Part shown: positions 1,463 through 59,524 of the stretch, one piece after another
Layout of the letters: the number at the start of each line of letters is the position of its first letter
Numbering within the stretch: the stretch's first letter is position 1
NCBI RefSeq assembly: GCF_022370835.2
Contig: NZ_CP092365.1
Location: 2,976,001-3,040,000 of the forward strand
Length of the DNA stretch: 64,000 nucleotides
Direction: 5' to 3'
Origin: Mycolicibacillus parakoreensis
Lineage (GTDB): Bacteria > Actinomycetota > Actinomycetes > Mycobacteriales > Mycobacteriaceae
Notes under the pieces: generated by a model
Database searches by the model: none
What the model saw: only the letters and a program-made list of their open reading frames with translations
What the model was told of the DNA's origin: nothing
Program-made: the position numbers and the translations under genes

Positions 1463-3286
1463 TCATTCGTCGCGGATCCGTTCGCGCACATCACGAACGG
1501 TTTGCTTCGCCGACTCGGTGAACTCATGCATCTTCTGCTTGGCACCCTTGGTGGTCATGCTCACCCGGTCCGGATCGTGCAGCACGGCCTTGGCGGTGTT
1601 CTTCGCCATCTCGCTGCGGATCTGCGGAGGCACCGGCGGCACGTCCGGGTCGACGACCACTTCGAGGACCACCGGACCGGCGGCCGAGAGCGCCTCATCC
1701 CAGGCCTCGCCGATGGTGGCCGGGTCGTCGCAGCGGATTCCGGTCAACCCGATCAGCGTGGCGAACTCGGCATAGGGAACGTCGGGAATATGTTGGCTGC
1801 CCTCGAATTTCGGTTGCCCGCCCATGGCGCGCTGTTCCCAGGTGACCTGGTTGAGATCCTGGTTGTTGAACACGCAGAAGATCAACGGGCCGTCCGACAG
1901 CCGATCCCGGTAGCGTTTGACGGTGATCATCTCGGCCATTCCGTTCATCTGGAACACCCCGTCGCCGACGATGGCGATGACCGGCCGGCCCGGGTGGGCC
2001 AGTTTGGCGGCGATCGCATAGGGGGTGCCCGGCCCCATGCTGGCCAGGTTTCCGCCCAGCGACGCCGCCATACCGGGACGCAGCCGCAGATGCCGGGCCC
2101 ACCAGTTGGCCACCGCGCCCGCGTCGGTGGTCAGCACCGCGTTGTCGGGCAGCCGTTTGGACAGTTCGTGGACGACCAGTTCGGGGTTGAGGGGGTCGGC
2201 CTTGTCGTGCGCCCGATCGTCGAGGGTCCGCCACCAGGTGGCCACCTCGCTCTCGATGGTGGAGCGCCACGCCCGGTCGCCTTTGCGTTTGAGCAGCGGC
2301 AGGAGTTCGGCCAGCGTATCGGCGGCATCCCCGACGAGGTTGGCGTCCATCGGGTACCGCAGGCCGATCATGCGTCCGTCGCGGTTGATCTCCACGCCGC
2401 GGCACTGTCCTTCCTTCGGCAACCATTCGGCGTAGGGGAAGCTGGACCCGATCATGAACAGCGTGTCGGCCTGCGACATCATCGCCTCGCTGGCGGTCGA
2501 TCCGAGCAGACCGATCGGGCCGGTCACATACGGCAGGTCGTCGGGCAGAACCGCCCGACCGAGTGAGGTCTTCGCCACGCCCGCGCCCAGCAGGTCGGCG
2601 ACCTGCTCCACCTCATCGGCCGCGCCGGCGGCGCCGGCACCGATGAGGATCGCGACCTTCTCGCCGGCGTTGAGGATGTCGGCGGCTTTGTGCAGTTCGG
2701 ACTGCGGCGGGATCATCCGCGGCATGGTCCAGCCGACACCGCTGTAGACCGCGCCGTGCACCCGCGGCGGGGAGGGCACCGCCTGCTCCTCGGCGACGTC
2801 CTCGGGCAGCACGATGGTGGCCACCGTGCGGTTGGTCAACGCCACCTTGCACGCCCGGTCCACCAGGTGGCGCGCCTGCACCGGGGTCATGCACGTCTGG
2901 ATGAAGTCGCTGGACACGTCCTTGTACAGCGAGGTCGGGTCGATCTCCTGCTGGAACGCCGCGCCCAACGACATCCGTCTCTGCTGGCCGATGACCGCCA
3001 CCACCGGCTGATGGTCGAGTTTCGCGTCGTAGAGGCCGTTGAGCAGATGGATCGCGCCGCCGCCGGAGGTGGCCAGGCAACAGCCCAGTTCCCCGGTGAA
3101 CTTGGCGTGCCCGGCGGCCATGAACGCACCCATCTCCTCGTGGCGCGGCTGGATCAGCTCGGGGTCGCCGTCGGCGCGATCCAGCGCCCCCACCATCGAC
3201 AGGATGCCGTCACCGGGGTAGCCGAAGATGCGGTGTACTCCCCATCGGCGTAGCCGGTCGACGATGAAATCCGCGGTTGTCGCCAT
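1463..3286 (-). CDS. Thiamine-diphosphate-dependent enzyme, pyruvate oxidase/acetolactate synthase family
   Basis: A 607-residue protein with the three-domain architecture of POX/ALS enzymes. The N-terminal Pyr domain starts ADFIVDRLRRWGVHRIFGYP and carries the ThDP-activating Glu in RHEEMGAF (about residue 50). A central nucleotide-binding-like domain follows, then a C-terminal PP domain with GDG at about 441-443 and NN about 24 residues later, the Mg-ThDP motif. It ends in a charged helical tail. It probably decarboxylates pyruvate or a related 2-oxo acid; whether FAD is bound cannot be decided. I chose the ATG at 3286 because AAGGAG lies 6 nt upstream; an in-frame ATG at 3307 would place that Shine-Dalgarno inside the gene. 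A clean SigF promoter sits 37 nt upstream, so it is probably a general-stress enzyme. Confidence 0.85.
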   Translation of the reverse strand: MATTADFIVDRLRRWGVHRIFGYPGDGILSMVGALDRADGDPELIQPRHEEMGAFMAAGHAKFTGELGCCLATSGGGAIHLLNGLYDAKLDHQPVVAVIGQQRRMSLGAAFQQEIDPTSLYKDVSSDFIQTCMTPVQARHLVDRACKVALTNRTVATIVLPEDVAEEQAVPSPPRVHGAVYSGVGWTMPRMIPPQSELHKAADILNAGEKVAILIGAGAAGAADEVEQVADLLGAGVAKTSLGRAVLPDDLPYVTGPIGLLGSTASEAMMSQADTLFMIGSSFPYAEWLPKEGQCRGVEINRDGRMIGLRYPMDANLVGDAADTLAELLPLLKRKGDRAWRSTIESEVATWWRTLDDRAHDKADPLNPELVVHELSKRLPDNAVLTTDAGAVANWWARHLRLRPGMAASLGGNLASMGPGTPYAIAAKLAHPGRPVIAIVGDGVFQMNGMAEMITVKRYRDRLSDGPLIFCVFNNQDLNQVTWEQRAMGGQPKFEGSQHIPDVPYAEFATLIGLTGIRCDDPATIGEAWDEALSAAGPVVLEVVVDPDVPPVPPQIRSEMAKNTAKAVLHDPDRVSMTTKGAKQKMHEFTESAKQTVRDVRERIRDE

Positions 3287-3347: not shown

Positions 3348-3524
3348 CGGCGCGGTGCGACGGTCCCACCGCCCGCCGTCGGCCCGCGCCGCTACGGGCC
3401 GGCCCTTGCTAAACTGCGGTCTTGACGTTCAACAGCAGCGTCGTTCAGCCTTCACCGGTATTGATTGCGCGAAGAGCAGGTGTGTGTTGGTCGGCGATGT
3501 CGATGCCCCCTCCCCCGGTCGCCG

Positions 3525-4172
3525 ATGAACGCTGACGCCCCCGGGCCCTCCGGCGACGCCGCCAACCCGCTGAAGATGTTCGCCGACCCCGACGAGCAGC
3601 AGCGGGTCGGCCGATTTCAGTTCTTCCTCACCGACCGACGGTGGGTGTGGTCGGACACCGTGGCCCGCATGCACGGCTACGAACCGGGCGCGGTGGTACC
3701 GACCACCGAGCTGCTTTTGCACCACAAGCATCCCGACGACCGCCCCGAGGTCGCCGTGGTGCTCGATCGGGTGCAGTCCGGCGAGCCGTTCAGCAGCCGC
3801 CACCGCATCATCGACACCGGTGGGCACACCCGGTGGGTGATCGTCGTCGGTGATTACATGCGCGGCGCCGACGACGCCGTGATCGGGACGGCCGGCTTCT
3901 ACGTCGACGTCACCGAGGTGCTGCAGTCCGATGTCAGTACCGCCGTGTCGGAGGTCACCGAGTCGCGGGCGGTCATCGAACAGGCCAAGGGGGTGCTGAT
4001 GGCCGCGCACGGCATCTCCGCCGAGCGGGCGTTCGACATCCTCGTCTGGCGCTCCCAGGAGACCAACATCAAGGTGCGGGAACTCGCCGGCCGGTTCGTC
4101 GAGGCCGTGGTCGGACGGATGTCACCGGGAACCGTCAGCCAGATCGATCATGCGCTGTTGACCATCGACTGA
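3525..4172 (+). CDS. PAS-ANTAR protein (putative RNA-binding antiterminator)
   Basis: A 215-residue protein. Residues ~25-130 form a PAS fold (FQFFLTDRRWVWSD, then HKHPDD, then RHRIIDTGGHTRWVIVVGD). Residues ~145-205 form an ANTAR domain (ESRAVIEQAKGVLMAAHGIS). ANTAR domains bind paired hairpins in leader RNAs and prevent termination, and PAS supplies the sensory input, so this is probably a one-component antiterminator. The ATG at 3525 was chosen because the protein aligns from there; TTG 3465 and GTG 3480 are in-frame alternatives, and no strong Shine-Dalgarno is seen. Its RNA target and ligand are unknown. It lies among SigF partner-switch genes, but I see no SigF site in front of it. Confidence 0.82.
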   Translation: MNADAPGPSGDAANPLKMFADPDEQQRVGRFQFFLTDRRWVWSDTVARMHGYEPGAVVPTTELLLHHKHPDDRPEVAVVLDRVQSGEPFSSRHRIIDTGGHTRWVIVVGDYMRGADDAVIGTAGFYVDVTEVLQSDVSTAVSEVTESRAVIEQAKGVLMAAHGISAERAFDILVWRSQETNIKVRELAGRFVEAVVGRMSPGTVSQIDHALLTID

Positions 4173-5829: not shown

Positions 5830-6621
5830 TCACTCCATTTGGGTGCGCAGCCGGGCCAGCGATTTGGCGAGCAGCCGTGAGACGTGCATCTGCGAGACCC
5901 CGACCCGCTCGGCGATCTGGGTCTGGGTCATCGACTCGAAGAACCGCAGGATGAGCACCGTGCGTTCACGCTCGGGCAGGGCCGCCAACAGCGGGCGCAG
6001 CGTCTCGAGGTTGTCGATGCGGTCCATCCCGGCGTCCACCGACCCCAGCGTGTCGGCGATCGCCCGAACATCGTCGTCGCCGCCACCGCTGCCGCTGTCG
6101 ATCGACAACGTGTTGTAGGAACTGCCCGCCACCAAGCCTTCGACGACCTCACGGCGGCTCACCTCCATCTCGGTCGCCAACTCCGACGGCGTCGGGGCCC
6201 GCCCGAGTCGCTGCGACAGTTCGGCGGTCGCGGCCCCCAGTCGCAGGTGCATCTCCTTGAGGCGCCGCGGCACCTTCACCGACCAACTGTTGTCACGGAA
6301 GTGGCGGCGGACCTCCCCCATGATCGTGGGCACCGCGAACGACACGAAATCCGACCCGGCCTCGACGTCGAAACGCGCCACCGCGTTGACCAACCCCACC
6401 CGCGCCACCTGCACCAGATCCTCGCGGTTCTCTCCTCGGCCGTCGAAGCGGCGGGCGATATGGTCGGCCAGCGGCAGGCAGCGCTCCACGATCTTGTCGC
6501 GCTGGGCGCAGAACCGCGGCGAGGCCGCGGGCAGCGCCGCCAACCGTCGGAACATCTCAGGGACGTCGGAGTACTCCGCGCTGCCCCGCGATGCCGAGCC
6601 ACCGGCATCGGCCGCCATCAC
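5830..6621 (-). CDS. sigF: RNA polymerase sigma factor SigF
   Basis: A 263-residue sigma-70 family group 3 (SigB/SigF/WhiG type) factor. Region 2 runs through IVERCLPLADHIARRF, ENREDLVQVARVGLVNAVARF and FVSFAVPTIMGEVRRHFRD. Region 3 has VKVPRRLKEMHLRLG. The region 4 helix-turn-helix is MTQTQIAERVGVSQMHVSRL near the C terminus. It directs RNA polymerase to general-stress and stationary-phase promoters in mycobacteria. Its start is GTG 6621 or the adjacent ATG 6618, both overlapping the rsbW stop, so anti-sigma and sigma are co-translated. Eight matching promoters cluster within 14 kb, including one before rsbW itself, which implies autoregulation. Confidence 0.95.
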   Translation of the reverse strand: MMAADAGGSASRGSAEYSDVPEMFRRLAALPAASPRFCAQRDKIVERCLPLADHIARRFDGRGENREDLVQVARVGLVNAVARFDVEAGSDFVSFAVPTIMGEVRRHFRDNSWSVKVPRRLKEMHLRLGAATAELSQRLGRAPTPSELATEMEVSRREVVEGLVAGSSYNTLSIDSGSGGGDDDVRAIADTLGSVDAGMDRIDNLETLRPLLAALPERERTVLILRFFESMTQTQIAERVGVSQMHVSRLLAKSLARLRTQME

Positions 6622-7607: not shown

Positions 7608-7853
7608 ATGAGCGACAAGAACGCCGCACAAGATGCTGTCAAGGGCGTCGTTGAAGGCGCCAAGGGAAAGGTCAAGGAGGCGGTCGGAACGGTCACCGGC
7701 CGTGACGACATGATCCGTGAAGGACATGCGCAACAAGACAAAGCGGAGTCCCAACGCGACGCGGCCAAAAAGGAGGCGCAAGCCGAACAGGCCCGCGCCG
7801 AGGCTCACATCGACGAGCAACGGCAGAAGGCCGACCAGGACCCCGAAAGCTAG
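7608..7853 (+). CDS. CsbD-like stress protein
   Basis: An 81-residue, highly charged, helical protein. Its N-terminal part (AAQDAVKGVVEGAKGKVKEA, then VGTVTGRDDM) matches the CsbD/YjbJ-type repeat of general-stress proteins. The remainder is a Lys/Glu/Gln/Ala helix suited to coiled-coil or disordered behaviour. The biochemical function of the family is not known. ATG 7608 is preferred over GTG 7590 because GGAAAGGTGG lies just upstream. It is co-transcribed with the preceding basic protein and closed by a strong terminator at 7867. A sigma-B/SigF-type stress regulon is the usual context for this family. Confidence 0.85.
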   Translation: MSDKNAAQDAVKGVVEGAKGKVKEAVGTVTGRDDMIREGHAQQDKAESQRDAAKKEAQAEQARAEAHIDEQRQKADQDPES

Positions 7854-7866
7854 GCCAGACCGGCGC

Positions 7867-7903
7867 AACAGGGGCCCAGCCGAGGCGGCTGGGCCCCTGT
7901 TTC
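7867..7903 (+). terminator. Strong intrinsic terminator
   Basis: A 16-bp perfect stem: AACAGGGGCCCAGCCG (7867-7882), loop AGG, complementary arm 7886-7901, followed by a short T run. It lies 14 nt after the CsbD-like stop and could also serve the convergent gene ending at 7946. Confidence 0.85.
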
Positions 7904-7945
7904 TGGGCTCTGGTCTCTGGGCTCTGGTGACGCTCGCGCCCCGTC

Positions 7946-8344
7946 TCAGCCCAACACCGCGGGCCCGGCGATCGGCACGCCCGCCATGAACAGGATCGCG
8001 AAACACAGCATCAACAGAAACCATCCGGCGCCCTGCCAGCCCCACCACGGTTGGCGGTCGCGGTAGCGCCGGTAGGTGCGGACAAACGCCCGGATCGCCC
8101 CGGCGAAGAACACCGCCGGGGCCGCCAACGCCAACGCGATGCGCTGCGGCGCACCGCACGCCGCGCCCGGGGCCGCGGAGCTGTCACAGCCGCTGGCCCA
8201 CAGCGATGCGACGATCAGCACCGCCACCCCGACGGCGGCGACCAGCAGGGCGAACCGGGCGGCGGCGCGCACCGTGGGATCGTTGCGCAGGGCGGACCGC
8301 CGCTCCCCGGAGTTCCCCGTCGACTGGCGACCATCGTGTGCCAC
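7946..8344 (-). CDS. Small membrane protein of unknown function
   Basis: A 132-residue protein with a hydrophilic N terminus and three predicted membrane segments: ~31-50 (ALLVAAVGVAVLIVASLWA), ~70-90 (IALALAAPAVFFAGAIRAFV) and ~108-128 (WFLLMLCFAILFMAGVPIAG). A Cys-containing loop lies between the first two (CDSSAAPGAACG). I do not recognise the family. GTG start 8344 follows GAAGGGG at suitable spacing. It lies inside the SigF island, but no SigF box was found in the 75 bp upstream. Confidence 0.65.
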   Translation of the reverse strand: MAHDGRQSTGNSGERRSALRNDPTVRAAARFALLVAAVGVAVLIVASLWASGCDSSAAPGAACGAPQRIALALAAPAVFFAGAIRAFVRTYRRYRDRQPWWGWQGAGWFLLMLCFAILFMAGVPIAGPAVLG

Positions 8345-8419
8345 GGCATCCCCTTCACCCCGATACGACCGGTGTTGCCCCGATCTTAGAGCGTGGCGGC
8401 GGGCACGGGGGCCTGTGGC

Positions 8420-10522
<2,103 letters not shown>

Positions 10523-44240: not shown

Positions 44241-45647
44241 GTGGGTGCCCTCGCCGAGCTGCGCCGGTCCTCGCCGATGACCGTGCTGGTCGGCGCCGCC
44301 GCCGCCGGCGTCGGCTTCCTCTACGGCTACGACCTGTCGACCCTGGCCGCCTCACTGCTGTTCCTGCAGACCGATTTCGGGTTGTCCTCGGCCGGCCAGG
44401 AGCTGATCGCGCTGGCCGCGGTGGTCGGTCAACTCCTCGGCGCCGCCGCCGGCGGGTGGCTGGCCAACACCGCAGGCCGGCGGCGCTGCATGGTCGCCCT
44501 CACCGCCGGGTACGCGCTGTGCGCGCTGGTCAGTGCCGCCGCCGTGGGCATCCCGATGCTGCTGGGCGCCCGGTTTCTGCTCGGGGTCGCCCTCGGGGTC
44601 GCGATCGTGGTGGTCCCGGTGTTCGTCGCCGAATCGGTGCCCGCGGCGGTGCGCGGGGCGCTGTTGGTGCTCTACGGGCTGGCCACGGTCTGCGGCATCA
44701 TCGGCGGCTACCTGGGCGCCTACCTGCTGTCGGGTCTGGACAGCTGGCGGTGGCTGCTGGGGGTGGCCGCCGTGCCCGCGGTGGGGGTGCTGGTGCTGCT
44801 GCGTCGGGTTCCCGACACCGCGCGCTGGTATCTGCTGCGCGGCCGGCCCACGCAGGCCCGTCGGGTGCTGCAGCGGGTGGACCCCGGCGTCGACGCCGAC
44901 GCGGAGCTCACCGAGATCGCCCGGGTGGTCGCCGCCGAGCAGGCCCAGCACGTCGGCGTGCTGCGCGAGATGCTGCGGCTGCCGTACCTGCGGGCCACCG
45001 TCTTCGTGGTCGGGCTGGGGTTTTTCATCCAGATCACCGGCATCAACGCGATCGTGTACTACAGCCCCCGGTTGTTCGAGACGATGGGGTTCAGCGGGTA
45101 CGCCGCGCTGCTGGCGCTGCCTGCGCTGGTGCAACTCTGCGCGCTGGCGGCGGTGGCCGTCTCGCTGCTGCTGGTCGATAAGGTCGGGCGCCGCCCGATC
45201 CTGTTGACCGGGATCGCGGTGATGATCGTCGCCGATGCGCTGCTGATCGTGGTGTTCGCCGCCGCGGGCGCGTTCGGCGCCGCGGTGCCCTACCTGCAGT
45301 TCGGCGCGGTGGTGGCGTTCACGGTCGCCTACACGTTCGGCTTCGGCTCGCTGGTGTGGGTCTATGCCGGCGAGAGCCTGCCGGCCCGGCTGCGGTCGAT
45401 GGGCTCCTCGGCGATGCTCACCGCCAACCTGCTGGCCAACGCCGTGGTGGTCGGGGTGTTCTTGACGCTGCTGGAGCGTCTCGGCGGCGCCGGGACGTTC
45501 GCGGTGTTCGCGGTGATGGCGGTGCTCGGGTTCGGGTTCGTCTACCGCTACGCCCCCGAGACCAAGGGCCGTCAACTCGAGGACATCCGTCACTACTGGG
45601 AGAACGGCTGCCGGTGGCCCGACCCGATGCCCGCGGAGCCGCGATGA
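44241..45647 (+). CDS. sugI: MFS sugar transporter SugI
   Basis: A 468-residue 12-helix major facilitator of the sugar porter family. Signatures are GYDLSTLAASLLFLQ in helix 1, GRRRCM after helix 2, KVGRRPILLTG between helices 8 and 9, QITGINAIVYYSP in helix 7 and PETKGRQLEDI after helix 12. It probably is a proton-coupled sugar importer. It overlaps nagA by ATGA, so N-acetylglucosamine or another amino sugar is a reasonable substrate guess; that is context-based inference. The ortholog is Rv3331. GTG start 44241 is preceded by a weak GGGGGCG. Confidence 0.9.
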   Translation: MGALAELRRSSPMTVLVGAAAAGVGFLYGYDLSTLAASLLFLQTDFGLSSAGQELIALAAVVGQLLGAAAGGWLANTAGRRRCMVALTAGYALCALVSAAAVGIPMLLGARFLLGVALGVAIVVVPVFVAESVPAAVRGALLVLYGLATVCGIIGGYLGAYLLSGLDSWRWLLGVAAVPAVGVLVLLRRVPDTARWYLLRGRPTQARRVLQRVDPGVDADAELTEIARVVAAEQAQHVGVLREMLRLPYLRATVFVVGLGFFIQITGINAIVYYSPRLFETMGFSGYAALLALPALVQLCALAAVAVSLLLVDKVGRRPILLTGIAVMIVADALLIVVFAAAGAFGAAVPYLQFGAVVAFTVAYTFGFGSLVWVYAGESLPARLRSMGSSAMLTANLLANAVVVGVFLTLLERLGGAGTFAVFAVMAVLGFGFVYRYAPETKGRQLEDIRHYWENGCRWPDPMPAEPR

Positions 45648-46795
45648 CGCTGATCGCGGCCGACGCCGTCGTCCTCGACGGCCACGTGGTGCGCCCGGGC
45701 TGGGTGCAGACCGACGGCGCCGACATCGTCGCCACCGGTGCGGGACGACCCGGCACCGGCGTCGACGTCGACCTGCCGCAGTCCGTGGTCGTGCCCGGCT
45801 TCGTCGACATGCACTGTCACGGCGGCGGGGGGGCGTCCTACCCGCACCGGGCCGAGGAGGTCGCGGCGTTTCACCGGCGTCACGGCACCACCAGCGCCCT
45901 GGCCAGCCTGCTCACCGCCGCGCCGGCGGACCTGCTGGCCGGGGTGCGCCTCCTGGCTGCGGCCACCGCCGCCGGCACCGTCGCGGGCATCCACCTGGAG
46001 GGGCCCTGGCTCAGCGCCGCGCGCTGCGGTGCCCACGACCCGGCCCTGCTGCGCGCACCCGATCCCGCCGAGATCGCCGCGCTGCTCGACGCCGGCGACG
46101 GGGCGATCCGGATGGTGACGCTGGCCCCGGAGCTGCCCGGAGCCGACGCCGCGATCCGCCAGCTGCTCGCCGCGGACGTGGTGGTGGCGCTCGGGCACAC
46201 CGACGCCGGCTACGACCAGACCCGCCGGGCCCTCGACGCGGGGGCCACCGTCGGCACCCACCTGTTCAACGCGATGCGCCCGGTCCATCAGCGTGAACCC
46301 GGACCGGTGCTGGCACTGCTGGAGGACCCGCGGGCCACGGTGGAGCTCATCGCCGACGGGGTGCACGTGCATCCGAGCCTGATCCGGCGGGTGATCGACA
46401 CGGCCGGGCCGCAGCGGGTGGCGCTGGTGACCGATGCGATGGCGGCCGCCGGCTGCCGCGACGGCCGCTACCGGCTCGGCGGGCGCGCCGTCGACGTCGC
46501 CGACGGGGTGGCCCGGGTCGCCGGGGCCACGACGATCGCCGGCAGCACCGCCACCGCGGCGCAGTTGCTGCGCACCGCGGTGGCGCACTCGGCGTTGGGC
46601 TTCGATGCGGCGCTGGCGGCCGCGACCCAGATGACCGCGAGCACCCCGGCGCGCACCCTGGGCCTGTCGCGGGTCGGGGCCCTGCAGCGCGGGCTGCGCG
46701 CCGATCTGGTGGTGCTCGACCGGGGACTGCAGGTGCGCCGGGTGATGGTCGGCGGGCGGTGGGAGCCTGCTAGCGTCGGGCCGGTCAGCACCTGA
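45644..46795 (+). CDS. nagA: N-acetylglucosamine-6-phosphate deacetylase
   Basis: A 383-residue metal-dependent amidohydrolase (the length of Rv3332) producing glucosamine 6-phosphate and acetate, used in cell-wall recycling. Metal and substrate motifs are GFVDMHCHGGGG (H57, H59), GIHLEGPW with the metal Glu, ALGHTDAGYDQTRR, GTHLFNAMRP and LIADGVHVHPSL. The catalytic Asp is in LVTDAMAAAG. The ATG overlaps the sugI stop. A guanidine-III riboswitch begins 3 nt after the nagA stop and governs the next gene, so nagA read-through may be regulated there. Confidence 0.94.
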   Translation: MTLIAADAVVLDGHVVRPGWVQTDGADIVATGAGRPGTGVDVDLPQSVVVPGFVDMHCHGGGGASYPHRAEEVAAFHRRHGTTSALASLLTAAPADLLAGVRLLAAATAAGTVAGIHLEGPWLSAARCGAHDPALLRAPDPAEIAALLDAGDGAIRMVTLAPELPGADAAIRQLLAADVVVALGHTDAGYDQTRRALDAGATVGTHLFNAMRPVHQREPGPVLALLEDPRATVELIADGVHVHPSLIRRVIDTAGPQRVALVTDAMAAAGCRDGRYRLGGRAVDVADGVARVAGATTIAGSTATAAQLLRTAVAHSALGFDAALAAATQMTASTPARTLGLSRVGALQRGLRADLVVLDRGLQVRRVMVGGRWEPASVGPVST

Positions 46796-46797
46796 CA

Positions 46798-46840
46798 CCG
46801 GACGAGGGGCGCCGTACCCGGCCAGCGACAAGACGGCGCC
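46798..46840 (+). promoter_or_regulatory. Guanidine-III (ykkC-III) riboswitch
   Basis: This 43-nt segment matches, almost base for base, the ykkC-III aptamer known from actinobacteria such as Thermobifida fusca. CCGGACGAGG opens it, CGCCGTACCCGG lies in the middle, and GACAAGACGGCGC closes it. CCGG at 46798-46801 can pair with CCGG in the middle (H-type pseudoknot) and GGCGCCGT pairs with ACGGCGCC. It ends 3 nt before the GGAGG Shine-Dalgarno (46844-46848) of the SMR gene, suggesting translational control by guanidinium. The identity rests on remembered consensus, not a search. Confidence 0.88.
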
Positions 46841-46854
46841 GACGGAGGTGGGTG

Positions 46855-47169
46855 ATGGCCTGGCTGATCCTGGTGTTCTCCGGGGCGTTGGAAGCGGTCT
46901 GGGCGACCGCGTTGGGCCGCTCCGAGGGGTTCTCGCGCCCGGTGCCGACGCTGGTCTTCGCAGTCACCGCGGTGCTGTCGGTGGTCGGGTTGGCGTTCGC
47001 GATGCGTGAGCTGCCCACCGGCACCAGCTACGCGATCTGGGTGGGCATCGGCGCGTCGCTGACGGTGGCCTACGCGATGCTCAGCGGCGCCGAGGCGGCG
47101 TCGGTGGCGAAGGTGCTGCTCATCGGCGGAGTCATCGGCTGTGTGATCGGGTTGCGCCTGGTCGCCTGA
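46855..47169 (+). CDS. gdx: SMR-family guanidinium exporter (Gdx, formerly SugE)
   Basis: A 104-residue four-helix small multidrug resistance protein with the essential Glu E13 (LVFSGALEAVWATALG) and the Gdx-type motif TGTSYAIWVGIGA. SMR proteins under guanidine riboswitches export guanidinium in exchange for protons; 'SugE' multidrug names are older. ATG 46855 is preferred over GTG 46852 because GGAGG is 6 nt away from 46855. The guanidine-III aptamer directly upstream is the main reason for the Gdx call. As a single gene it would act as a homodimer in dual topology. Confidence 0.88.
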   Translation: MAWLILVFSGALEAVWATALGRSEGFSRPVPTLVFAVTAVLSVVGLAFAMRELPTGTSYAIWVGIGASLTVAYAMLSGAEAASVAKVLLIGGVIGCVIGLRLVA

Positions 47170-47208
47170 GGCGCTGCGCGCACCGCGGGCGGGTCCCCCG
47201 GCCCGGGC

Positions 47209-49361
<2,153 letters not shown>

Positions 49362-49440
49362 TTATCGTGACCTCAACCGCTCTTTGCCCGACACGGTGGG
49401 CACGCCGAGCGGTCGGCCGACCACCAGGAAGGATTCCCCC

Positions 49441-50007
49441 ATGACCCAGAGCAGTGTCGCCGAACCCGAGATCGTAGTCGGCGAAGACGGTGGTCGCGAA
49501 CAACTTTGGGCGCTGCCGACCGATCAGGACAACCTGTTGAAGCTGCTGCACCTCTGCTTCGACGAGTACTGGGACGAGATCTGGTTCGGGATCATCATGC
49601 AAGGCGCGGCGTGGGAGGTGGCCGCCCCCAACGCGCCGACGAAGATCTCGGTGCTCGACGGCTACGCCACCGTCGACTTCGGTCGCTGGCATTTCCACCT
49701 GTGCATCGGCAGACACCTCGGCGCGACCCGCGAGCTGCGCGCGGTGCGCCAGTGCGCGCGCGCCGAGCTGTACCGGCGCTACGGTCGCGACGGCGATCCC
49801 AATTCGTGGGGGGTGCGGCTCTACAACGGCCGCGATGAGCAGATGATGACGATCCTGCTGCCGAACCCGTTCCTCACCAACGATCAGCAGCTGCGCGAGG
49901 AGCCGGCGTGGGGCCAGCTGGAGCTGTGGGACCGGCTGCGCGCGGAGTTCCTCGATCTGGCCCCGGACCCGCTGGACCGCACCGGGGCGCGCATCACCTG
50001 CGGCTGA
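49441..50007 (+). CDS. Conserved hypothetical protein
   Basis: A 188-residue soluble protein that I do not recognise. It is aromatic and acidic, with clusters such as LHLCFDEYWDEIWFGIIMQG, VDFGRWHFHLCIGRH and NSWGVRLYNGRDEQMMTILL. His/Cys/Asp positions in the middle could bind a metal, but no known motif is evident. There is no signal peptide or membrane segment. ATG 49441 has AGGAAGGA 7 nt upstream, so it is well translated. It lies between trpS (divergent) and the PPE gene (convergent). Confidence 0.7.
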   Translation: MTQSSVAEPEIVVGEDGGREQLWALPTDQDNLLKLLHLCFDEYWDEIWFGIIMQGAAWEVAAPNAPTKISVLDGYATVDFGRWHFHLCIGRHLGATRELRAVRQCARAELYRRYGRDGDPNSWGVRLYNGRDEQMMTILLPNPFLTNDQQLREEPAWGQLELWDRLRAEFLDLAPDPLDRTGARITCG

Positions 50008-50025
50008 GCACGGTGGGCGCGACCG

Positions 50026-51780
50026 CTACTGCGGCGGGCTCTCCCAGGTGCTCGGCATCATCGGCGTCGGGGCGGCGCCGAGTTCGTCACCCGCCTCGTC
50101 GTCGGCGACGGCGGTGAGCCCGCCGGCGCGGGCGGCGCCGGTCTGCGCGGCGGTGCCGGCGAACCCCAGCGGGCCCGCGCCCGTCTCGGAGGCGCCCACC
50201 GCCGGTGGGCCGTCGAGTTCTTGATCCAGCGTCATGTACTCGTGGCCGCGCCCGAGCATGTCGGCTTTGTCGCGGCGCCGGCGGCGATGGCGCTGCCGTG
50301 TCGTCTCCTCGGCCTCGGTGGCCACCGCAGCCGCGGTCTCGTCGGGTCGGGGTTTGCGCCGGCGGGCCCGTGCGGCCGCGCTGGCCTGGGCCTCCATCCC
50401 CATGTTGGCCACCATGTAGGAGTACAGCGGCGGGCCGGCCGGCGTCGGGGGCGGACCCGGGGGCGGTGCAGCGGCCGGCGCCGGGGCCGGGGCGGGGGCC
50501 GGCGACGGGGCGGGCGCCGGTGACGGCGACGGAGCCGGTGTCGGCGGCGGCATGGTCGGCACCGCGGGCATCACCGGCGCCGGCGGTGGCGGTGGGGGCG
50601 GCGGGGCCGCGACCGCCGGGGTGAGCTTGGCCAGCGCGCCCAACCCGAGCCCGCCGAGCACCGCCGGCGGAGCCAGCAGCGGACTGGCCAGCGCCGGCGC
50701 CAGCGCGGGCAGCAGAGCGGTCTGGGTGATGAGATAGTTCAGCGCCTGCACGGTGTTGCCGAACGTGGATCCGACGATCTCGACCATGGCCAGCGGTGCC
50801 ACGTAGACCAACGCGGCAGGATTGGTCACCGCCGTGTAGAGGATCAGCAGCAGATCGTCGATGATCACCTTGGCGGTGAAGGCGATATACGATCCCGGAT
50901 CCAGCGGCACCGACAGGATGTAGGCGAAGAACCCGGGGTTGAGGTAGCTGAACGGATTGCCGGTCGCCCAGAGCCATTCACCGTGCAGCGGCAACCCCAG
51001 CAATTGCAGCGGCCCCATCAGCGCCTCGAAGAAATCCGCGAACGGATCGGCGACGTCGCCCAGTCCGATCTGGTCGAAGAACCCCATGATGGCGTCGTAG
51101 AGCGGCACGTTCTGTTCCGGCATCCCGGGCTGCTCACCGAGCAAGCCGTAGAGAAACTCCTGCAGCCGGGTGAACCAGTCGGGCGGCTCGCTGGCGGCGG
51201 CCGGCGCCGGTTCGGAGGCGGTGTCGGCCGCGGTCGTGTCGGCCTTCATCACCGTCGGGGCCGGCTGCGCCGGCGGGGAGGACCCCACCGCCGCACCCGC
51301 GGCGGTCTCGTAGGTGGCCATCACCGTGGCGGCCTGCACCCACATCCGCGCGTAGTCGGCCTCGTTCAGCGCGATCGGGATGGTGTTGATCCCGAAGAAG
51401 TTGGTGGCCGTCAACGCGGCGTGGGTGACGTGGTTGGCGACCAGTTCCGGCATCGTCGGCATCGCGGCCAACGCGCTGGTGTAGGCCGTCGCCGCGGTCT
51501 GCTGCTCGGCGGCCATCGCCTGGCTGGCCGCGCTCTGCTGGGCCAGCCAGGCCAGGTACGGGCCGTGCGCACCGGCGTAGGACGCCGCGCTGGGCCCCTG
51601 CCACACGCCGGTCTCCACGGCGGTGACCACCGCGGTCAGCTCCTGGGCGATCTCGGCGTACTCCACGCTCAGCGCCGACCAGGCGGCCGACGACGCCAGC
51701 AGCGGGCCCGGGCCCGGGCCCGCCGACAGGGCCGTGGAGTGCACCTCGGGGGGGAGGGCGAACCAGGCCGGGGCGGTCAT
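50026..51780 (-). CDS. PPE-PPW protein, PPE2-like
   Basis: A 584-residue PPE protein. PPE is at residues 10-12 and WQG at 60-62 in the EspG-binding helical domain (~1-175). A central hydrophobic domain follows, then a Pro/Ala repeat (~395-450) and a C-terminal tail with basic runs (RARRRKPRPDE; RHRRRRRDK). The tail ends with GFAGT and PxxPxxW (PMMPSTW at 573-579), the markers of the PPW subgroup. This, together with the upstream cobalamin riboswitch, resembles M. tuberculosis PPE2 (Rv0256c). No PE partner is adjacent. PPE proteins are exported by ESX systems. The PPE ATG overlaps a 19-codon upstream ORF. Confidence 0.88.
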   Translation of the reverse strand: MTAPAWFALPPEVHSTALSAGPGPGPLLASSAAWSALSVEYAEIAQELTAVVTAVETGVWQGPSAASYAGAHGPYLAWLAQQSAASQAMAAEQQTAATAYTSALAAMPTMPELVANHVTHAALTATNFFGINTIPIALNEADYARMWVQAATVMATYETAAGAAVGSSPPAQPAPTVMKADTTAADTASEPAPAAASEPPDWFTRLQEFLYGLLGEQPGMPEQNVPLYDAIMGFFDQIGLGDVADPFADFFEALMGPLQLLGLPLHGEWLWATGNPFSYLNPGFFAYILSVPLDPGSYIAFTAKVIIDDLLLILYTAVTNPAALVYVAPLAMVEIVGSTFGNTVQALNYLITQTALLPALAPALASPLLAPPAVLGGLGLGALAKLTPAVAAPPPPPPPPAPVMPAVPTMPPPTPAPSPSPAPAPSPAPAPAPAPAAAPPPGPPPTPAGPPLYSYMVANMGMEAQASAAARARRRKPRPDETAAAVATEAEETTRQRHRRRRRDKADMLGRGHEYMTLDQELDGPPAVGASETGAGPLGFAGTAAQTGAARAGGLTAVADDEAGDELGAAPTPMMPSTWESPPQ

Positions 51781-51836
51781 CGGATCACCCCGGCGCTACC
51801 GGGGGCCCGGCGGACCCCGCACGCTGCGCACACCAT
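51777..51836 (-). CDS. Upstream ORF overlapping the PPE start
   Basis: A 19-codon ORF (MVCAACGVRRAPGSAGVIR) begins at ATG 51836, between the cobalamin aptamer and the PPE gene. Its TGA overlaps the PPE ATG as ATGA (51780-51777). It has a CxxC motif. No strong Shine-Dalgarno is visible. In M. tuberculosis, short ORFs between B12 riboswitches and metE/PPE2 have been reported to transmit control by coupled translation (recalled), and this arrangement looks equivalent. Confidence 0.55.
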   Translation of the reverse strand: MVCAACGVRRAPGSAGVIR

Positions 51837-51889
51837 GGTTGTTCGTCAGCTCTCTCGGGGTGCACCGCCCCGGGTCGCAGGACGCGACG

Positions 51890-52060
51890 ACGTCAGTATC
51901 CTGGCTCTCGGATCCCCGCTCCCCTCGCCTTCCAACCCCGTTTTTGGGGTCGTGGCCGATGAGGATCGCTCCCCGATGACAGTGGCGGGACCGCGCCGGA
52001 TTCACACCGGCTTCCTGGGCCGCCGTCGCCTTACGCGCAGCATTGTCGCACGCCGCCCCG
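51890..52060 (-). promoter_or_regulatory. Cobalamin (B12) riboswitch upstream of the PPE gene
   Basis: On the minus strand the conserved core reads CAGGAAGCCGGTGTGAATCC, then GGCGCGGTCCCGCCACTGT (52017-51979). The P7-P11 region follows, and the 3' signature GAGCCAGGATAC ends at 51896. These are the B12-box elements of AdoCbl/MeCbl riboswitches. The hairpin GTCGC-N5-GCGAC just downstream (about 51890-51876) can act as the L13 kissing partner and expression platform. The 5' boundary is approximate. Together with the short ORF it accounts for the 367-bp gap between the PPE gene and the divergent hydrolase gene. Confidence 0.9.
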
Positions 52061-52134
52061 GCGCGGCGGTAGTGAGCTCCCACGCTCACCGCGTCCCCGC
52101 GCACCCCCATGTTTGCGGTACCGCCGGTATGCCC

Positions 52135-52140
52135 TAATGT
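52135..52140 (+). promoter_or_regulatory. Putative -10 element of the alpha/beta hydrolase gene
   Basis: TAATGT, 7 nt before the GTG at 52148; predicts a leaderless transcript that starts at the GTG. Confidence 0.55.
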
Positions 52141-52147
52141 CGTCACG

Positions 52148-52984
52148 GTGACGACACGCGCCCCCATTCATCTGGGTTCCGGCGAGCCCGTTGTGCTGTT
52201 GCACCCGTTCATGCTCTCCCAAGCGGTCTGGGCCGACGTCGCCGTGCAGTTGGCCGACACCGGCCGCTACGAGGTGTTCGCCCCCACCCTGGCGGGCCAC
52301 AACGGCGGGCCCCGCGGCGATTCCTGGCTGCTCAGCGCCTCGATCCTGGCCGATCACGTCGAACGGCAGATGGATGAGCTGGGCTGGCGCACCGCCCACC
52401 TGGTCGGTAACTCCCTGGGGGGCTGGCTGGCCTATGAGCTGGCCGGACGCGGGCGCGCGCGCACCGTGACCGGGATCGCCCCGGCCGGCGGTTGGACGCG
52501 CTGGACCCCGTGCAAATTCGAGGTGATCGCCAAATTCCTCGCCGGGCTGCCGCTGTGGCTGGCCGTGCTGGCGGTCGGTGACCGGATCCTGCGGCTGCCG
52601 TGGAGCCGTCAGATCGCGGCGCTGCCGTTGGCCGGGTCGGCCGACCGGCTCACCGAGGCGCACCTGCACAGCGCCGTCGACGACCTGTCCCACTGCCCCG
52701 CCTACTACCGGTTGCTGCTCAAAACGCTGCTCGAGCCGGGACTGACCGACCTCACCGCCCTGACCGTCCCGGCCCATTTGGTCAACTGCACCAAGGACCG
52801 GGTGGTGCCCGCCCCCCGGTTCACCCGCCTGTTCACCACCGGGGTCGCCGCACTGCAGGTGAGCACGCTGGAGGGGATGGGCCACATCCCGATGCTCGAG
52901 GCGCCCGGGGCGGTCACCGAGACCATCACCGGGTTCCTCGACCGGCACGTGCCGCCGATGCAGGCCGAGACCCCCGCCGGCTGA
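52148..52984 (+). CDS. Alpha/beta-fold hydrolase
   Basis: A 278-residue cytosolic hydrolase. The oxyanion strand is VVLLHPFM, the nucleophile S89 lies in LVGNSLGGWLA, and the acid Asp is in NCTKDRVVP. The catalytic His is in EGMGHIPMLEAP. The substrate is unknown; it is similar to the hydrolase at Rv3338 in the syntenic region. The GTG at 52148 is supported by the -10 element 7 nt upstream; the frame open to 52109 would include codons upstream of that promoter. It is divergent from the PPE gene and convergent with icd1. Confidence 0.87.
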   Translation: MTTRAPIHLGSGEPVVLLHPFMLSQAVWADVAVQLADTGRYEVFAPTLAGHNGGPRGDSWLLSASILADHVERQMDELGWRTAHLVGNSLGGWLAYELAGRGRARTVTGIAPAGGWTRWTPCKFEVIAKFLAGLPLWLAVLAVGDRILRLPWSRQIAALPLAGSADRLTEAHLHSAVDDLSHCPAYYRLLLKTLLEPGLTDLTALTVPAHLVNCTKDRVVPAPRFTRLFTTGVAALQVSTLEGMGHIPMLEAPGAVTETITGFLDRHVPPMQAETPAG

Positions 52985-53003
52985 CGCCGCGTGCGGCGCC
53001 GGT

Positions 53004-54236
53004 TCAGCCCGCGGCGCGTGCCCGCGCGAGGCGCTCGGCGACCGCGGTGAGGAACTCCTCGCTGGTCTGCCACGGCTGGTCGTCGCCGATCAGAAGCGCC
53101 AGGTCCTTGGTCATCTGACCGCCCTCGACGGTGCCGACGACGGCCTGCTCGAGGGTGGCGGCGAATTCGGTCACCTGCGGGGTGTCGTCGAGTTTGCCGC
53201 GATGCTCCAGCCCCCGGGTCCAGGCGAAGATCGAGGCGATCGGGTTGGTGGAGGTCGGTTTGCCCGCCCGGTACTGGCGGAAATGTCGGGTCACGGTGCC
53301 GTGCGCGGCTTCGGACTCCACCGTCTTGCCGTCGGCGGTCATCAGCACCGAGGTCATCAACCCCAGCGAACCGTAGCCCTGCGCGACGATGTCGGATTGC
53401 ACATCCCCGTCGTAGTTTTTGGCCGCCCACACGTAGCCGCCCTCCCATTTGAGCGACTGGGCGACCATGTCGTCGATCAGGCGGTGCTCGTAGCTGAGCC
53501 CGGCGGCGTCGAAGTCGGCCTTGAACTCGTCGGCGAAGATGGCGGCGAACTCGTCTTTGAACATGCCGTCGTAGGCCTTGAGGATGGTGTTCTTCGTCGA
53601 CAGGTAGACCGGGTAGTCGACGTCGAGGGCATAGCGGAACACCGCGCGGGCGAAGTCGCGGATCGAGTTCCGAAAGTTGTACATGCCCATGATCACCCCG
53701 CCGTCGTCGGGCATGCGCACCACCTCGTGCACGATCGGTTCGGATCCGTCGTCGGGGGTGAACGTCAACGTCACCGTGCCGGGCCGGTCGATCTTCGCAT
53801 CGGTGGCGCGGTACTGATCGCCGAACGCGTGGCGGGCGATCACGATCGGCTTGCTCCAGCCGGGCACCAGCCGCGGAATGTTGTCGATCACGATCGGCGC
53901 ACGGAAGATCGTGCCACCCAGAATGTTCCGGATCGTTCCGTTGGGTGAACGCCACATGTGTTTGAGGCCGAACTCGTCCACCCGCGCCTCATCAGGAGTG
54001 ATCGTGGCGCATTTGACGCCGACGCCGTGCTTCTGGATGGCGTGGGCGGCGTCGACGGTCACCTGATCGTCGGTGGCGTCGCGGTTCTCGATGCCCAGGT
54101 CGTAGTAGTCCAGGTCGATGTCCAGGTGCGGCAGGATCAGCATGTCTTTGATCCACTGCCACAGCACGCGGGTCATCTCGTCACCGTCGAGGTCGACGAC
54201 GGTGCCGCGCACCGGGATCCTGGCCGGGGTAGCCAT
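53004..54236 (-). CDS. icd1: NADP-dependent isocitrate dehydrogenase, dimeric type (Icd1)
   Basis: A 410-residue enzyme of the eukaryote-like IDH subfamily, close to Rv3339c. It decarboxylates isocitrate to 2-oxoglutarate. Substrate residues include the [16 protein letters not shown] loop (phosphorylatable Ser position) and RHAFGDQY. The metal-binding Asp are in [12 protein letters not shown] and [15 protein letters not shown], and the NADP site is [13 protein letters not shown]. It is encoded directly after icd2, with 14 bp between them, on the same strand. The two enzymes are unrelated in sequence. Confidence 0.95.
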
Positions 54237-54250
54237 CGATCGGATCGCGT

Positions 54251-56485
<2,235 letters not shown>

Positions 56486-56701
56486 GGTCTATCTCCCGGC
56501 GTCACTATGCGGTCGGATATCGAGCGGCACCGTGTTTGCCACGGTGTCTATCACCGTATCGCGTGCCGGGTCGGTGGTGGCGCCGAAGGGGTCGTGGGTC
56601 ACCGGGGCCCGCCGCGGGGGGTCACCGCGGCGGGGGTGGGGCCGTTTTGCCTGGCACCACGCCCGCACGGCGTCAGGTGGCGGCCGATCAACGTCGTGCG
56701 A

Positions 56702-56707
56702 TAGGCT
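56702..56707 (+). promoter_or_regulatory. Putative -10 element of the SAM-IV/metY transcript
   Basis: TAGGCT, 7 nt before the SAM-IV aptamer start at about 56715; no convincing -35 is seen. The remaining 56486-56701, the gap to the divergent icd2, holds GC-rich imperfect repeats (GGGTCACCG twice) but no ORF that I can support. Confidence 0.5.
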
Positions 56708-56714
56708 GCTGATT

Positions 56715-56837
56715 GGTTCTGAGTGCCAGCGCGAAGCCCCGGCTTGCTGGCCGGCAACCCTCCAACCGCGGTGGGGTGCCCCGGGTGATGACCAGGTTGA
56801 GTAGCCGCCGCCGGCTACGCGGCAAGCGCGGGTCCGC
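56715..56837 (+). promoter_or_regulatory. SAM-IV riboswitch
   Basis: The segment GAGTGCCAGC, CCCCGGCTTGCTGGCCGGCA, ACCCTCCAACCGCGGTGGGG, TGCCCCGGGTGATGACCAGG, and GGCAAGCGCGGGTC is the SAM-IV aptamer that precedes the metY (metC/Rv3340) gene in mycobacteria. Differences from the M. tuberculosis copy, as remembered, are few. It senses S-adenosylmethionine and reduces expression of methionine synthesis. No clear intrinsic terminator follows; a CCCCC (56850-56854) can pair with GGGG (56865-56868) of the upstream-ORF Shine-Dalgarno. Confidence 0.93.
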
Positions 56838-56874
56838 TTTTATGACGGGCCCCCAGAGCAGACAGGGGAGCCTG

Positions 56875-56919
56875 ATGTGTGCCCAACGGTACGGGTTCGC
56901 GATGTGTTGTAGCCACTGA
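56875..56919 (+). CDS. Cys-rich upstream ORF between SAM-IV and metY
   Basis: A 14-codon ORF (MCAQRYGFAMCCSH) with three TGT Cys codons, two of them adjacent near the stop. GGGGAG lies 4 nt upstream of its ATG. Small ORFs with terminal Cys runs act as cysteine-responsive attenuators before sulfur genes in mycobacteria (recalled from M. smegmatis work). Position before the sulfhydrylase gene fits this. An in-frame ATG at 56842 would extend it to 25 codons but lacks a Shine-Dalgarno. Confidence 0.5.
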   Translation: MCAQRYGFAMCCSH

Positions 56920-57029
56920 CGACCGGGATCCCCGGATGCCGCCGACCGACAGCCCGCGGCCGTCCCGGGCTCTCGACCGCGCACCACATCGCCAGCATTG
57001 TCAGTCCGAACAGAAAGCACCCGAACCGC

Positions 57030-58373
57030 ATGAGTGCCGAGACCACCAACGATCCGGACCCCAGCGCGCACTGGTCGTTTGAGACCAAGCAAGTTCACGC
57101 CGGTCAGGTTCCCGACCCGACGACCAACGCGCGGGCCCTGCCGATCTACCAGACCACCTCCTACCTCTTCGACGACACCGATCACGCCGCCGCGCTGTTC
57201 GGCCTGGAGGTGCCGGGCAACATCTACACCCGGATGATGAACCCGACCAGCGATGTCGTGGAGAAGCGGATCGCGGCGCTGGAAGGCGGCGTGGCCGCGC
57301 TGCTGCTGTCGGCGGGTCAGGCGGCCAGTTCGTTCGCGATTTTGAACCTGGCCGGCGCCGGGGACCACATCGTGTCCAGCCCGCGGCTCTACGGCGGCAC
57401 CCACAACCTGTTCCACTACACGTTGAAAAAGGTGGGTATCGAGTTCACCTTCGTCGACGACCCCGACGACCTGGAGTCCTGGCGCCAGGCGGTCCGCCCC
57501 AACACCAAGGCGCTGTTCGCCGAGACGATCTCCAACCCGAAGATCGATGTGCTCGACGTGCCGGGGGTGGCCGAGGTCGCCCACAGCAACCGGGTGCCGT
57601 TGATCGTCGACAACACCGTCCCCACCCCCTATCTGCTCCAGCCGATCGCCCACGGCGCCGACATCGTGGTGCACTCGGCGACGAAGTACCTCGGCGGGCA
57701 CGGCACCGCGATCGCCGGGGTGCTCGTCGACGGCGGCACCTTCGACTGGACCCAGGGCCGCCACCCCGGGTTCACCACCCCCGACCCGAGCTACAACGGG
57801 GTGGTCTACGCCGACCTCGGCGCCCCGGCGTTCGCCCTCAAGGCCCGGGTGCAGCTGCTGCGCGACTACGGCTCGACGCCGTCGCCGTTCAACGCGTTCC
57901 TGATCGCCCAGGGCCTGGAGACGTTGAGCCTGCGGGTGGAACGCCACGTCGCCAACGCACAGCGGGTCGCGGAGTTCCTCGCCGGACGCGACGACGTGCT
58001 CGGCGTCAACTACGCGGGGCTGCCCAGCTCGCCGTGGCACCGGTTGGGCAAGAAGCTGGCCCCCCGCGGCACCGGCGCGGTGTTGTCGTTCGAGCTGGCC
58101 GGCGGGGTGGCCGCCGGCAAGGCGTTCGTCAACGCGCTGCAGTTGCACAGCCACGTCGCCAACATCGGTGACGTCCGCTCGCTGGTGATCCACCCGGCCT
58201 CGACCACCCATTCCCAGCTCACCCCGGAGGCGCGGCTGGCCAGCGGGGTCAGCCCCGGGCTGGTGCGTCTGGCGGTCGGCATCGAAGGCATCGACGACAT
58301 CCTGGCCGACCTGGAACGCGGGTTCGCCGCCGCGGCCGCGGTCGCCGACGGCGACCCCGCGGCGGCCCGTTGA
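57030..58373 (+). CDS. metY: O-acetylhomoserine sulfhydrylase
   Basis: A 447-residue PLP enzyme of the Cys/Met metabolism family that makes homocysteine from O-acetylhomoserine and sulfide. It is named metC in M. tuberculosis (Rv3340). The PLP Lys is K219 in [13 protein letters not shown]. Other signatures are [20 protein letters not shown] and [16 protein letters not shown]. It is the first gene after the SAM-IV riboswitch and Cys-rich upstream ORF, about 110 bp beyond the latter. metX follows 11 nt after its stop; together they form the direct sulfhydrylation route. The Shine-Dalgarno is weak (AGAAAG). Confidence 0.94.
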
Positions 58374-58384
58374 GGAGACCTCCG

Positions 58385-59524
58385 GTGACGATCTCCGACG
58401 TGCGCACCCAGACCCTGCCGCCGCAGGGTGAGACCGGCGTGGTCGACATCGGCGCGCTGACCCTGGAAAGCGGCACCGTGCTCGACGACGTCGGCATCGC
58501 GGTGCAGCGCTGGGGTGAGCTCTCCGCGGCCCGCGACAACGTCGTGATGGTGCTGCACGCGCTGACCGGCGATTCCCATGTGACCGGCCCGGCCGGGCCG
58601 GGCCACCCCACCCCCGGCTGGTGGGACGGGGTGGTCGGCCCGGGCGCACCGCTCGACACCGACCGGTGGTGCGTGGTGGCGACCAACGCGCTGGGCGGAT
58701 GCCGCGGCTCCACCGGTCCGGGCTCGCCGGCCGGCGACGGCCGACCGTGGGGATCCCGGTTCCCGGCGACCACGATCCGCGATCAGGTCGCCGCCGACCT
58801 CGCCGCCCTGGCCGCGCTCGGCATCACCGAGGTGGCCGCGGTGGTCGGCGGGTCGATGGGCGGGGCCCGGGCGCTGGAGTGGATCGTCGGGCACCCGCAC
58901 ACGGTTCGGGCCGGTCTGCTGCTGGCGGTCGGCGCGCGGGCCACCGCCGACCAGATCGGCACCCAGAGCACCCAGATCGCGGCGATCACCGCCGACCCGC
59001 ACTGGCAGGGCGGCGACTATCACGGCACCGGCCGCTCCCCCGAGGCCGGCCTGGACGTCGCGCGCCGCATCGCGCATTTGACCTACCGCGGCGAGGCGGA
59101 ACTGGATCGCCGGTTCGCCAACACCGCCCAGGACGGCGAGGACCCGGCCGCCGGCGGGCGTTACGCGGTGCAGAGCTACCTGGAACACCAGGGCGGCAAG
59201 CTGGTCTCCCGGTTCGATGCGGGCAGCTACGTCACGCTCACCGATGCGCTGTCGAGCCACGACGTCGGCCGCGGTCGCGGCGGGGTCGCCGCCGCGCTGC
59301 GCGGCTGCCCGGTGCCGGCGGTGGTCGGCGGCATCACCTCCGACCGGCTCTACCCGCTGCGACTGCAGCAGGAGTTGGCCGATCTGCTGCCCGGCTGCGA
59401 CGAGTTGAGCGTGATCGACGCCGACTACGGCCACGACAGTTTTCTGCTGGAGGCCGACGCGGTCGCTGCGCTGATCCGCCGCACCCTGGAGTTGGCCGCG
59501 GATCGGGACGCGCGGCGACGGTGA
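58385..59524 (+). CDS. metX: Homoserine O-acetyltransferase
   Basis: A 379-residue alpha/beta-hydrolase-fold acetyltransferase (same length as Rv3341, named metA there) that supplies the O-acetylhomoserine used by MetY. The nucleophile is S157 in [27 protein letters not shown] forms the oxyanion region, and the acid and base are in [14 protein letters not shown] and [12 protein letters not shown]. The GTG at 58385 follows GGAGACC at 6 nt and aligns with the known N terminus ([11 protein letters not shown]). It is the second gene of the riboswitch-controlled unit; a methyltransferase gene follows 7 nt after its stop. Confidence 0.95.

Follow-up and report, generated by a model that had tools for sequence, protein, structure and literature searches.

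The question raised by the locus described here is what a PPE protein does under the control of vitamin B12. In the 64,000-nucleotide stretch of Mycolicibacillus parakoreensis DNA that was analysed (contig NZ_CP092365.1, positions 2,976,001 to 3,040,000 of the forward strand; hereafter the window), a PPE2-like gene of 584 amino acids (50026..51780, minus strand) follows a cobalamin riboswitch, and, as a preliminary description had stated, no cobalamin gene or PE partner adjoins it, neither turning up in a scan of ten proteins from 44241 to 59524. Gene context in relatives favours a role of the PPE protein in corrinoid uptake, and PPE2 probably serves at the mycomembrane in a system for corrinoid uptake that B12 represses. 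A fuller reading, offered tentatively and leaning slightly toward doubt, is that PPE2 does in mycobacteria what BtuB does elsewhere: exported through a type VII system, it would be a mycomembrane route of entry for corrinoids, and its gene would have been added in mycobacteria to the end of an actinobacterial B12 importer operon of greater age, encoding BtuFCD with an FhuF-type domain and DUF7676 as HutX-like corrinoid carrier. On this reading the upstream open reading frame (uORF) that relays ribosomes to the PPE gene is the welded stump of a deleted importer. Published work is cited below by PMC accession.

The riboswitch was borne out by the covariance-model check. Rfam cmscan of the window gave an RF00174 (Cobalamin) match at 51894..52017 on the minus strand (model positions 45-169; 81.7 bits against a gathering score of 31.5; E 1.5e-18), with the B12 box, GAGCCAGGAUAC, aligned. 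The control element extends beyond this aptamer. A leader model (R1), built from 35 aligned leaders with the window's own among them, matches 51845..52025 on the same strand (184.8 bits) and takes in both aptamer and expression platform. The outer-stem pairs of the ppe2-type leader covary in the 35-leader alignment, and loops L5 and L13 are present. The platform contains a CGGGG-loop-CCCCG hairpin (51856..51872, minus strand), whose five pairs (columns 158-162 with 171-175 of A1) are kept in 35/35 leaders and, being invariant, give no covariation; its regulatory role is taken from PMC11260477. Directly after the hairpin stands a Shine-Dalgarno-like AGAGAG (51850-51855, minus strand), followed by a uORF of 19 codons, read from the sequence (MVCAACGVRRAPGSAGVIR; 51777..51836, minus strand), whose TGA stop overlaps the PPE ATG as ATGA. 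The window leader thus has the traits of the class IIb variant (GGAA in the junction, short P6 arm, start-site hairpin, overlapping uORF); folding energy alone does not mark it out (z 0.36).

This layout is that of Mycobacterium tuberculosis ppe2 (Rv0256c) and its uPPE2, with a cobalamin aptamer, the GGAA junction motif, a hairpin before the start site and an AUGA overlap (PMC11260477), the likeness being one of layout. The M. tuberculosis leader is reported to bind B12 and to act as a translational off switch, and PPE2 expression there needs the uORF, mainly through termination-reinitiation at AUGA (PMC11260477). The order in that species is PPE2-cobQ-cobU (PMC11260477), the preliminary description having already placed cob genes next to it; the window gene, unlike it, has no cobQ or cobU behind it and sits between an isocitrate dehydrogenase/metZ region and DUF7676. 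Other mycobacteria also have the pairing of switch and PPE2, with a link to cob genes that varies (PMC4428469); in M. marinum and M. avium, ppe2 is separated from cobQ-cobU (PMC12713380). The core of the earlier finding was therefore already known in kind.

The protein itself belongs to the PPE-PPW subfamily, with basic runs, as first described. Pfam places the PPE domain at residues 6-167 (PF00823, E 1.2e-57) and PPE-PPW at 530-579 (PF18878, E 2.5e-11), both above cut-off, with the PPE motif at 10 and WQG at 60; a hydrophobic helical stretch (about 282-352), a Pro/Ala-rich linker and the runs RRRK at 473 and RHRRRRR at 497 lie between. The closest named relative found is from Mycolicibacillus koreensis (86% identity over residues 1-362).

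What the switch controls elsewhere was surveyed by searching 396 genomes of the genus, related and not independent, with R1. Matches at E <= 1e-10 occurred in 166 genomes. Strong leaders (at least 160 bits, above a clear gap, the next scoring 127.6) numbered 124 copies in 97/396 genomes; these and 16 hand-picked weaker ones, among the 150 matches listed, were examined. The first gene after the 124 strong leaders is a PPE gene in 90 cases, btuF-like in 31, and a PE gene, an fhuF-like gene and no gene before the contig end in one case each; R1 was built from PPE leaders and is therefore biased toward them. After 18 of the 90 PPE-first loci were dropped for having less than 4 kb downstream, cobQ or cobU, fragments counted, was found within 4 kb downstream of 10/72. 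A lone PPE gene behind the switch is hence not the unusual arrangement it had been taken for, and the variable cob link in print says the same (PMC4428469, PMC12713380). The direct link between PPE and B12 that had been argued from orphan status stands to the extent that the switch goes with PPE and not with cob, while orphan status is itself nothing special. Nor is the window gene wholly an orphan: the adjacent, convergent DUF7676 gene (49441-50007, plus strand) belongs to a B12-switched importer run in 31 related loci.

The PPE start could be placed in 88 of the 90 PPE-first loci (all except those of G216 and G113). A uORF ending in NTGA over the start occurs in 57, and in 16 the PPE gene lies directly at the switch-controlled site; the other 15 include in-frame fusions and starts that the script could not place. 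Both the length and the sequence of the uORF peptides differ widely between loci, as suits a landing pad better than a conserved peptide. In a quick-search PPE tree of 189 rows, switch PPEs and operon PPEs fall mostly in two blocks with weak deep branches; the window row joins three other switch rows (99*), and no supported branch unites the two large switch blocks. At least one row marked as having no switch (L023) has a weaker one, found later. Two loci of the survey may be recorded in their own right. The strong leader before a PE-family gene (PF00934; L185, G023:C3, 3808-5031, plus strand), about 6 kb downstream of which lies a PPE gene, points to a possible PE target, and in Mycolicibacter sp. 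MYC340 (L026, 10001-12163, plus strand) the switch-controlled PPE frame continues into a CobB/CobQ-like glutamine amidotransferase domain (721 amino acids; Pfam PPE 6-168, GATase_3 494-655).

By tblastn order, from which gene runs were called, all 31 btuF-first loci read btuF, btuC, btuD, FhuF-type region, DUF7676, and in 31/31 btuD and the FhuF-type region share one open frame; genes for a binding protein, a permease and an ATPase thus stand in a row behind a cobalamin switch. The operon proteins of genome G094 matched Peripla_BP_2, FecCD, ABC_tran with FhuF_C, and PF24724 in Pfam. The best NCBIfam model for the permease was vitamin B12 BtuC (187.5 bits against a cut-off of 334), and for the ATPase an F420-0 model was best and the corrinoid ATPase second (164.1 against 537 bits); as all of these scores, the F420-0 one too, fell short of the curated cut-offs, the proteins are called BtuFCD-like only. 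A sequence search for solved structural relatives of BtuF gave none at E <= 0.01. An FhuF_C protein also lies directly behind a weaker leader-model match in another mycobacterium (L265, G031, 1650-2306, plus strand), a hint of wider corrinoid service by FhuF-type proteins.

PPE joins this operon in several ways. It lies 3' of DUF7676 on the same strand in nine loci; in seven of them (G071, G117, G186, G191, G319, G320, G380) a second switch is absent, and the PPE start overlaps the DUF7676 stop or lies no more than about 20 nt from it, and in G189 and G339 a second switch is present. In 12 loci the PPE gene converges with the importer operon within 7.5 kb. In G357 the order PPE2-cobQ-cobU is found, with btuF (stop-free), btuC, btuD and the start of fhuF diverging from the PPE2 switch, and broken btu pieces lie beside the PPE2 switch in G115, G075 and G329 (3.1-3.3 Mb).

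DUF7676 is predicted to adopt the HutX/ChuX haem-carrier fold, with a structural match that clearly exceeds those to other folds and spans most of the domain, at 11-18% identity to HutX, ChuX and HemS in fold alignments. It resembles these carriers also in its place after ABC importer genes; it differs from them in the invariant H85, H87 and C89 (numbering of A2) of a WHFHLCIG motif, and its putative ligand is a corrinoid. Five genomes with DUF7676 have no strong leader (G026, G073, G083, G226, G251). In two of these, G251 (L219) and G083 (L220), DUF7676 has as neighbours a FecCD/ATPase pair that is more distantly related and, nearby, a PPE gene, with no cobalamin switch detected, and in G073 (L222, L234) and G226 (L237) a divergent cobQ adjoins btuF.

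Four DUF7676 loci were fetched from another actinobacterial family (L226-L229), and a PPE gene was present at none of them. In L227 an RF00174 match (3519-3720) is followed by btuF, btuC, btuD, fhuF and DUF7676, and in L226 it precedes btuF, with DUF7676 upstream of the switch. A switch-borne importer without PPE in a second family makes importer and switch look older than the link to PPE2.

In some lineages the uORF may record how the importer was later lost. Some uORFs look like the beginning of btuF in their DNA, and the ends of some look like the last part of DUF7676 where that gene precedes PPE. Each of 72 uORF regions was compared with 200 dinucleotide shuffles (16 of the 88 loci were too short and were left out), and no shuffle scored as high for the btuF 5' end in 20/72, for the DUF7676 3' end in 6/72, and for both in five (G048, G118, G131, G250, G290); in controls that used reverse complements or swapped ends the counts were 0/72, 0/72, 0/72 and 0/17. 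A first run with 300 shuffles had given 18 (5') and 8 (3'); two of these 3' matches, a self-match of G189 and a match of G030, were to one unsuitable reference, since removed. That the btuF-like start is merely a copied leader was rejected for the five double-ended genomes, in which the other end matches DUF7676 and no btuF was found at E <= 1e-40; a copied leader may be the source in the other 15 single-end genomes. The five scars cluster within a single part of the PPE tree and could go back to one event. An intermediate arrangement is seen in G388 (L182, G388:C1, minus strand, about 7785-8471), where the switch is followed by a stand-alone FhuF-like gene and, through an ATGA overlap, by PPE2, with no btuFCD or DUF7676 between. 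These sequences are most simply read as follows: PPE2 once stood behind DUF7676 in an operon, the importer was deleted from it, and the uORF is what remained.

Corrinoid uptake in Escherichia coli uses BtuB and TonB at the outer membrane and the BtuFCD importer. The mycobacterial operon likewise has a binding protein, a permease and an ATPase, with an outer membrane to be crossed; unlike the E. coli system, described in PMC3603451, it has PPE in place of BtuB/TonB, an ATPase fused to an FhuF-type domain, and an extra DUF7676. In the model proposed here, with ligand binding, translational control and termination-reinitiation taken over from the M. tuberculosis work (PMC11260477), the leader would be a B12 off switch. 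At low B12 the AGAGAG...AUG site would be free, the 19-codon uORF translated, and ribosomes would restart on PPE at AUGA; once B12 sufficed, the site would be masked by the aptamer together with the CGGGG/CCCCG hairpin. PPE2 would be exported by a type VII system, take its place in the outer membrane and aid corrinoid passage through the mycomembrane. The ancestral PPE2 would have been last in an operon, presumably on one transcript, after a BtuF-like binding lipoprotein, a BtuC-like permease, a BtuD-like ATPase/FhuF-type Fe-S fusion and DUF7676, which may carry corrinoid in the cytosol. Some lineages would then have lost the importer by deletion, the fused btuF and DUF7676 ends becoming the uORF. 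In the window species, importer genes would have been retained at another site, where no switch is detected, and the switched PPE gene would have kept its place beside DUF7676.

Solute-transporting PPE51, PPE36/62, PPE37, PPE20 and PPE64 (PMC12802285) share with PPE2 the PPE domain and a proposed mycomembrane passage; PPE2 differs in its PPE-PPW C-terminus and B12 control, and its solute is a proposal. Genes of the BtuFCD type are also known from M. smegmatis (MSMEG_4560-4558; PMC8088520), likened here by gene type alone; the excerpted account of them mentions no FhuF, DUF7676 or PPE, unlike the operon here. No outer-membrane cobamide transporter is known in mycobacteria according to PMC12713380, and the route of B12 through the mycobacterial outer membrane is stated as unknown (PMC11237697, PMC12713380). 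A PPE gene directly behind a B12-switched importer run is a concrete candidate for this step, and one that can be deleted in species not counted among listed pathogens; the double-ended scar offers an origin for the M. tuberculosis uORF relay, and DUF7676 gains a testable role as candidate corrinoid carrier. The importer-operon link of switch and PPE2 and the uORF as deletion scar appear to be new, no paper tying PPE2 to a btu operon or explaining the uORF as a deletion scar having been found in the open-licence literature, as far as its excerpts go.

A number of observations weigh against this account. Of the other-family loci, L228 (in which btuD, fhuF and DUF7676 were seen) and L229 have no cobalamin switch above the gathering score. 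No significant scar was found in 52/72 uORFs at the 5' end and 66/72 at the 3' end. A visible deletion scar in the window's own uORF was rejected, 25/200 and 179/200 shuffles scoring as high, so that a deletion origin can only be inferred for the window. The AlphaFold2 model of PPE2 (pTM 0.35) is fairly confident only at about residues 10-170, the PPE helices, and 282-352; it gives no information on a channel and so neither supports nor excludes one. The window genome has B12-synthesis genes, and import need therefore not be vital. A transposon selection in M. tuberculosis named Rv1819c as B12 transporter, the word PPE being absent from the paper (PMC3603451), and the M. tuberculosis ppe2 switch binds AdoB12 weakly (Kd 446 uM; PMC11260477). 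Screens in M. marinum, as excerpted, gave no specific outer-membrane B12 transporter, and esxUT/ESX-4 mutants appeared in them (PMC11237697); a B12-repressed gene could have been silent there. A search for btuF covered 70 genomes (65 leader genomes outside the btuF-first group, G094, and four that have DUF7676 but lack the strong leader), the window genome being searched apart; of the 65, 59 have no btuF at E <= 1e-40, five have one, and G115 has broken remains. PPE2 hence cannot depend on this importer, and where it is missing would need other inner-membrane transporters.

The missing btuF and the reported action of M. tuberculosis PPE2 on host NO and ROS, also an objection to the uptake model, would both fit a PPE2 that is a secreted host-cell modulator, with B12 as mere environmental cue for expression; effects on haematopoiesis are reviewed along with these (PMC12713380), and basic runs are present in the window protein too. 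This is unlikely as a full explanation, since a host-only role leaves unexplained why PPE2 lies directly after a B12-switched importer run in 7 genomes and converges with one within 7.5 kb in 12 more loci, although a later second role is possible. It is less likely still that the operon imports a siderophore or haem and that PPE2 is part of that. FhuF_C, FecCD and the HutX-like fold do occur in iron and haem uptake, Fe-siderophore models score near the BtuC models, and the ATPase prefers the F420-0 model; yet in 31 mycobacterial loci a cobalamin riboswitch belonging to a single leader class precedes the run, and in 2/4 loci of the other family a cobalamin riboswitch precedes related genes. Cobalt, which the preliminary description had named beside cobalamin, was proposed for PPE2 as 'CbtG' (Rodionov 2003, as quoted in PMC4428469), and the B12 switch and hydrophobic stretches would suit it; it is very unlikely, and less likely than corrinoid, because the operon partners are of the BtuF/BtuC/BtuD type (Peripla_BP_2, FecCD) and, with the haem-carrier-like fold, fit large chelates or tetrapyrroles. 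The speculation, voiced in PMC11260477, that the switch once belonged to cobQ/cobU and that PPE2 invaded the locus, to which the PPE2-cobQ-cobU order of M. tuberculosis (PMC11260477) and G357 lends itself, is rejected as highly improbable on the btuF and DUF7676 ends of five uORFs, which indicate an importer operon, and on survey gene order, with cob genes near just 10/72 switch-PPE loci and no strong leader directly before cobQ/cobU without PPE or a btu gene among 123 leaders with the first gene seen.

The host genome of the window agrees with a PPE gene apart from the cob genes: cobQ (C1:2763526), cobU (C1:1457904) and cobN (C1:1633744) are far from the PPE switch (C1:3027894). The frames beside cobU, which we take to be cobT/cobS-like, were likewise counted against a cob-locus origin of the switch. 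Two cobalamin riboswitch matches at E <= 0.001 were found in the genome, the PPE switch and one at C1:891042-891234, adjoining a frame that is presumably metE-like. Some 77 kb away from the PPE switch, a row of btuF, btuC, btuD and fhuF starts at C1:2950573, with no riboswitch detected at it. A leader stub, CCCCGAGAAAGAGC, precedes btuF (1/2000 shuffles as high; L217, G000:C1:2944000-2960000, btuF ATG at 6574). With the aptamer undetected and the stub in place, the importer of this species may be outside B12 control and PPE within it.

The ten proteins scanned around the PPE gene comprise a sugar transporter, an amidohydrolase, BrkB, DUF7676, PPE, alpha/beta hydrolases, two isocitrate dehydrogenases and a Cys/Met-metabolism enzyme. 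The DUF7676 gene (188 amino acids, predicted HutX/ChuX-like fold) was searched with 49438-50007 or 49438-50004, a 5' end one codon longer. Two further riboswitches lie in the window. A Guanidine-III match (46779-46842, plus strand, 66.6 bits) is just upstream of a 105-amino-acid frame (46852-47169, plus strand), which we take to resemble a small multidrug-resistance guanidinium exporter, and a SAM-IV riboswitch (56715-56834, plus strand, 105.8 bits) precedes the Cys/Met-metabolism enzyme gene (57030-58373, plus strand).
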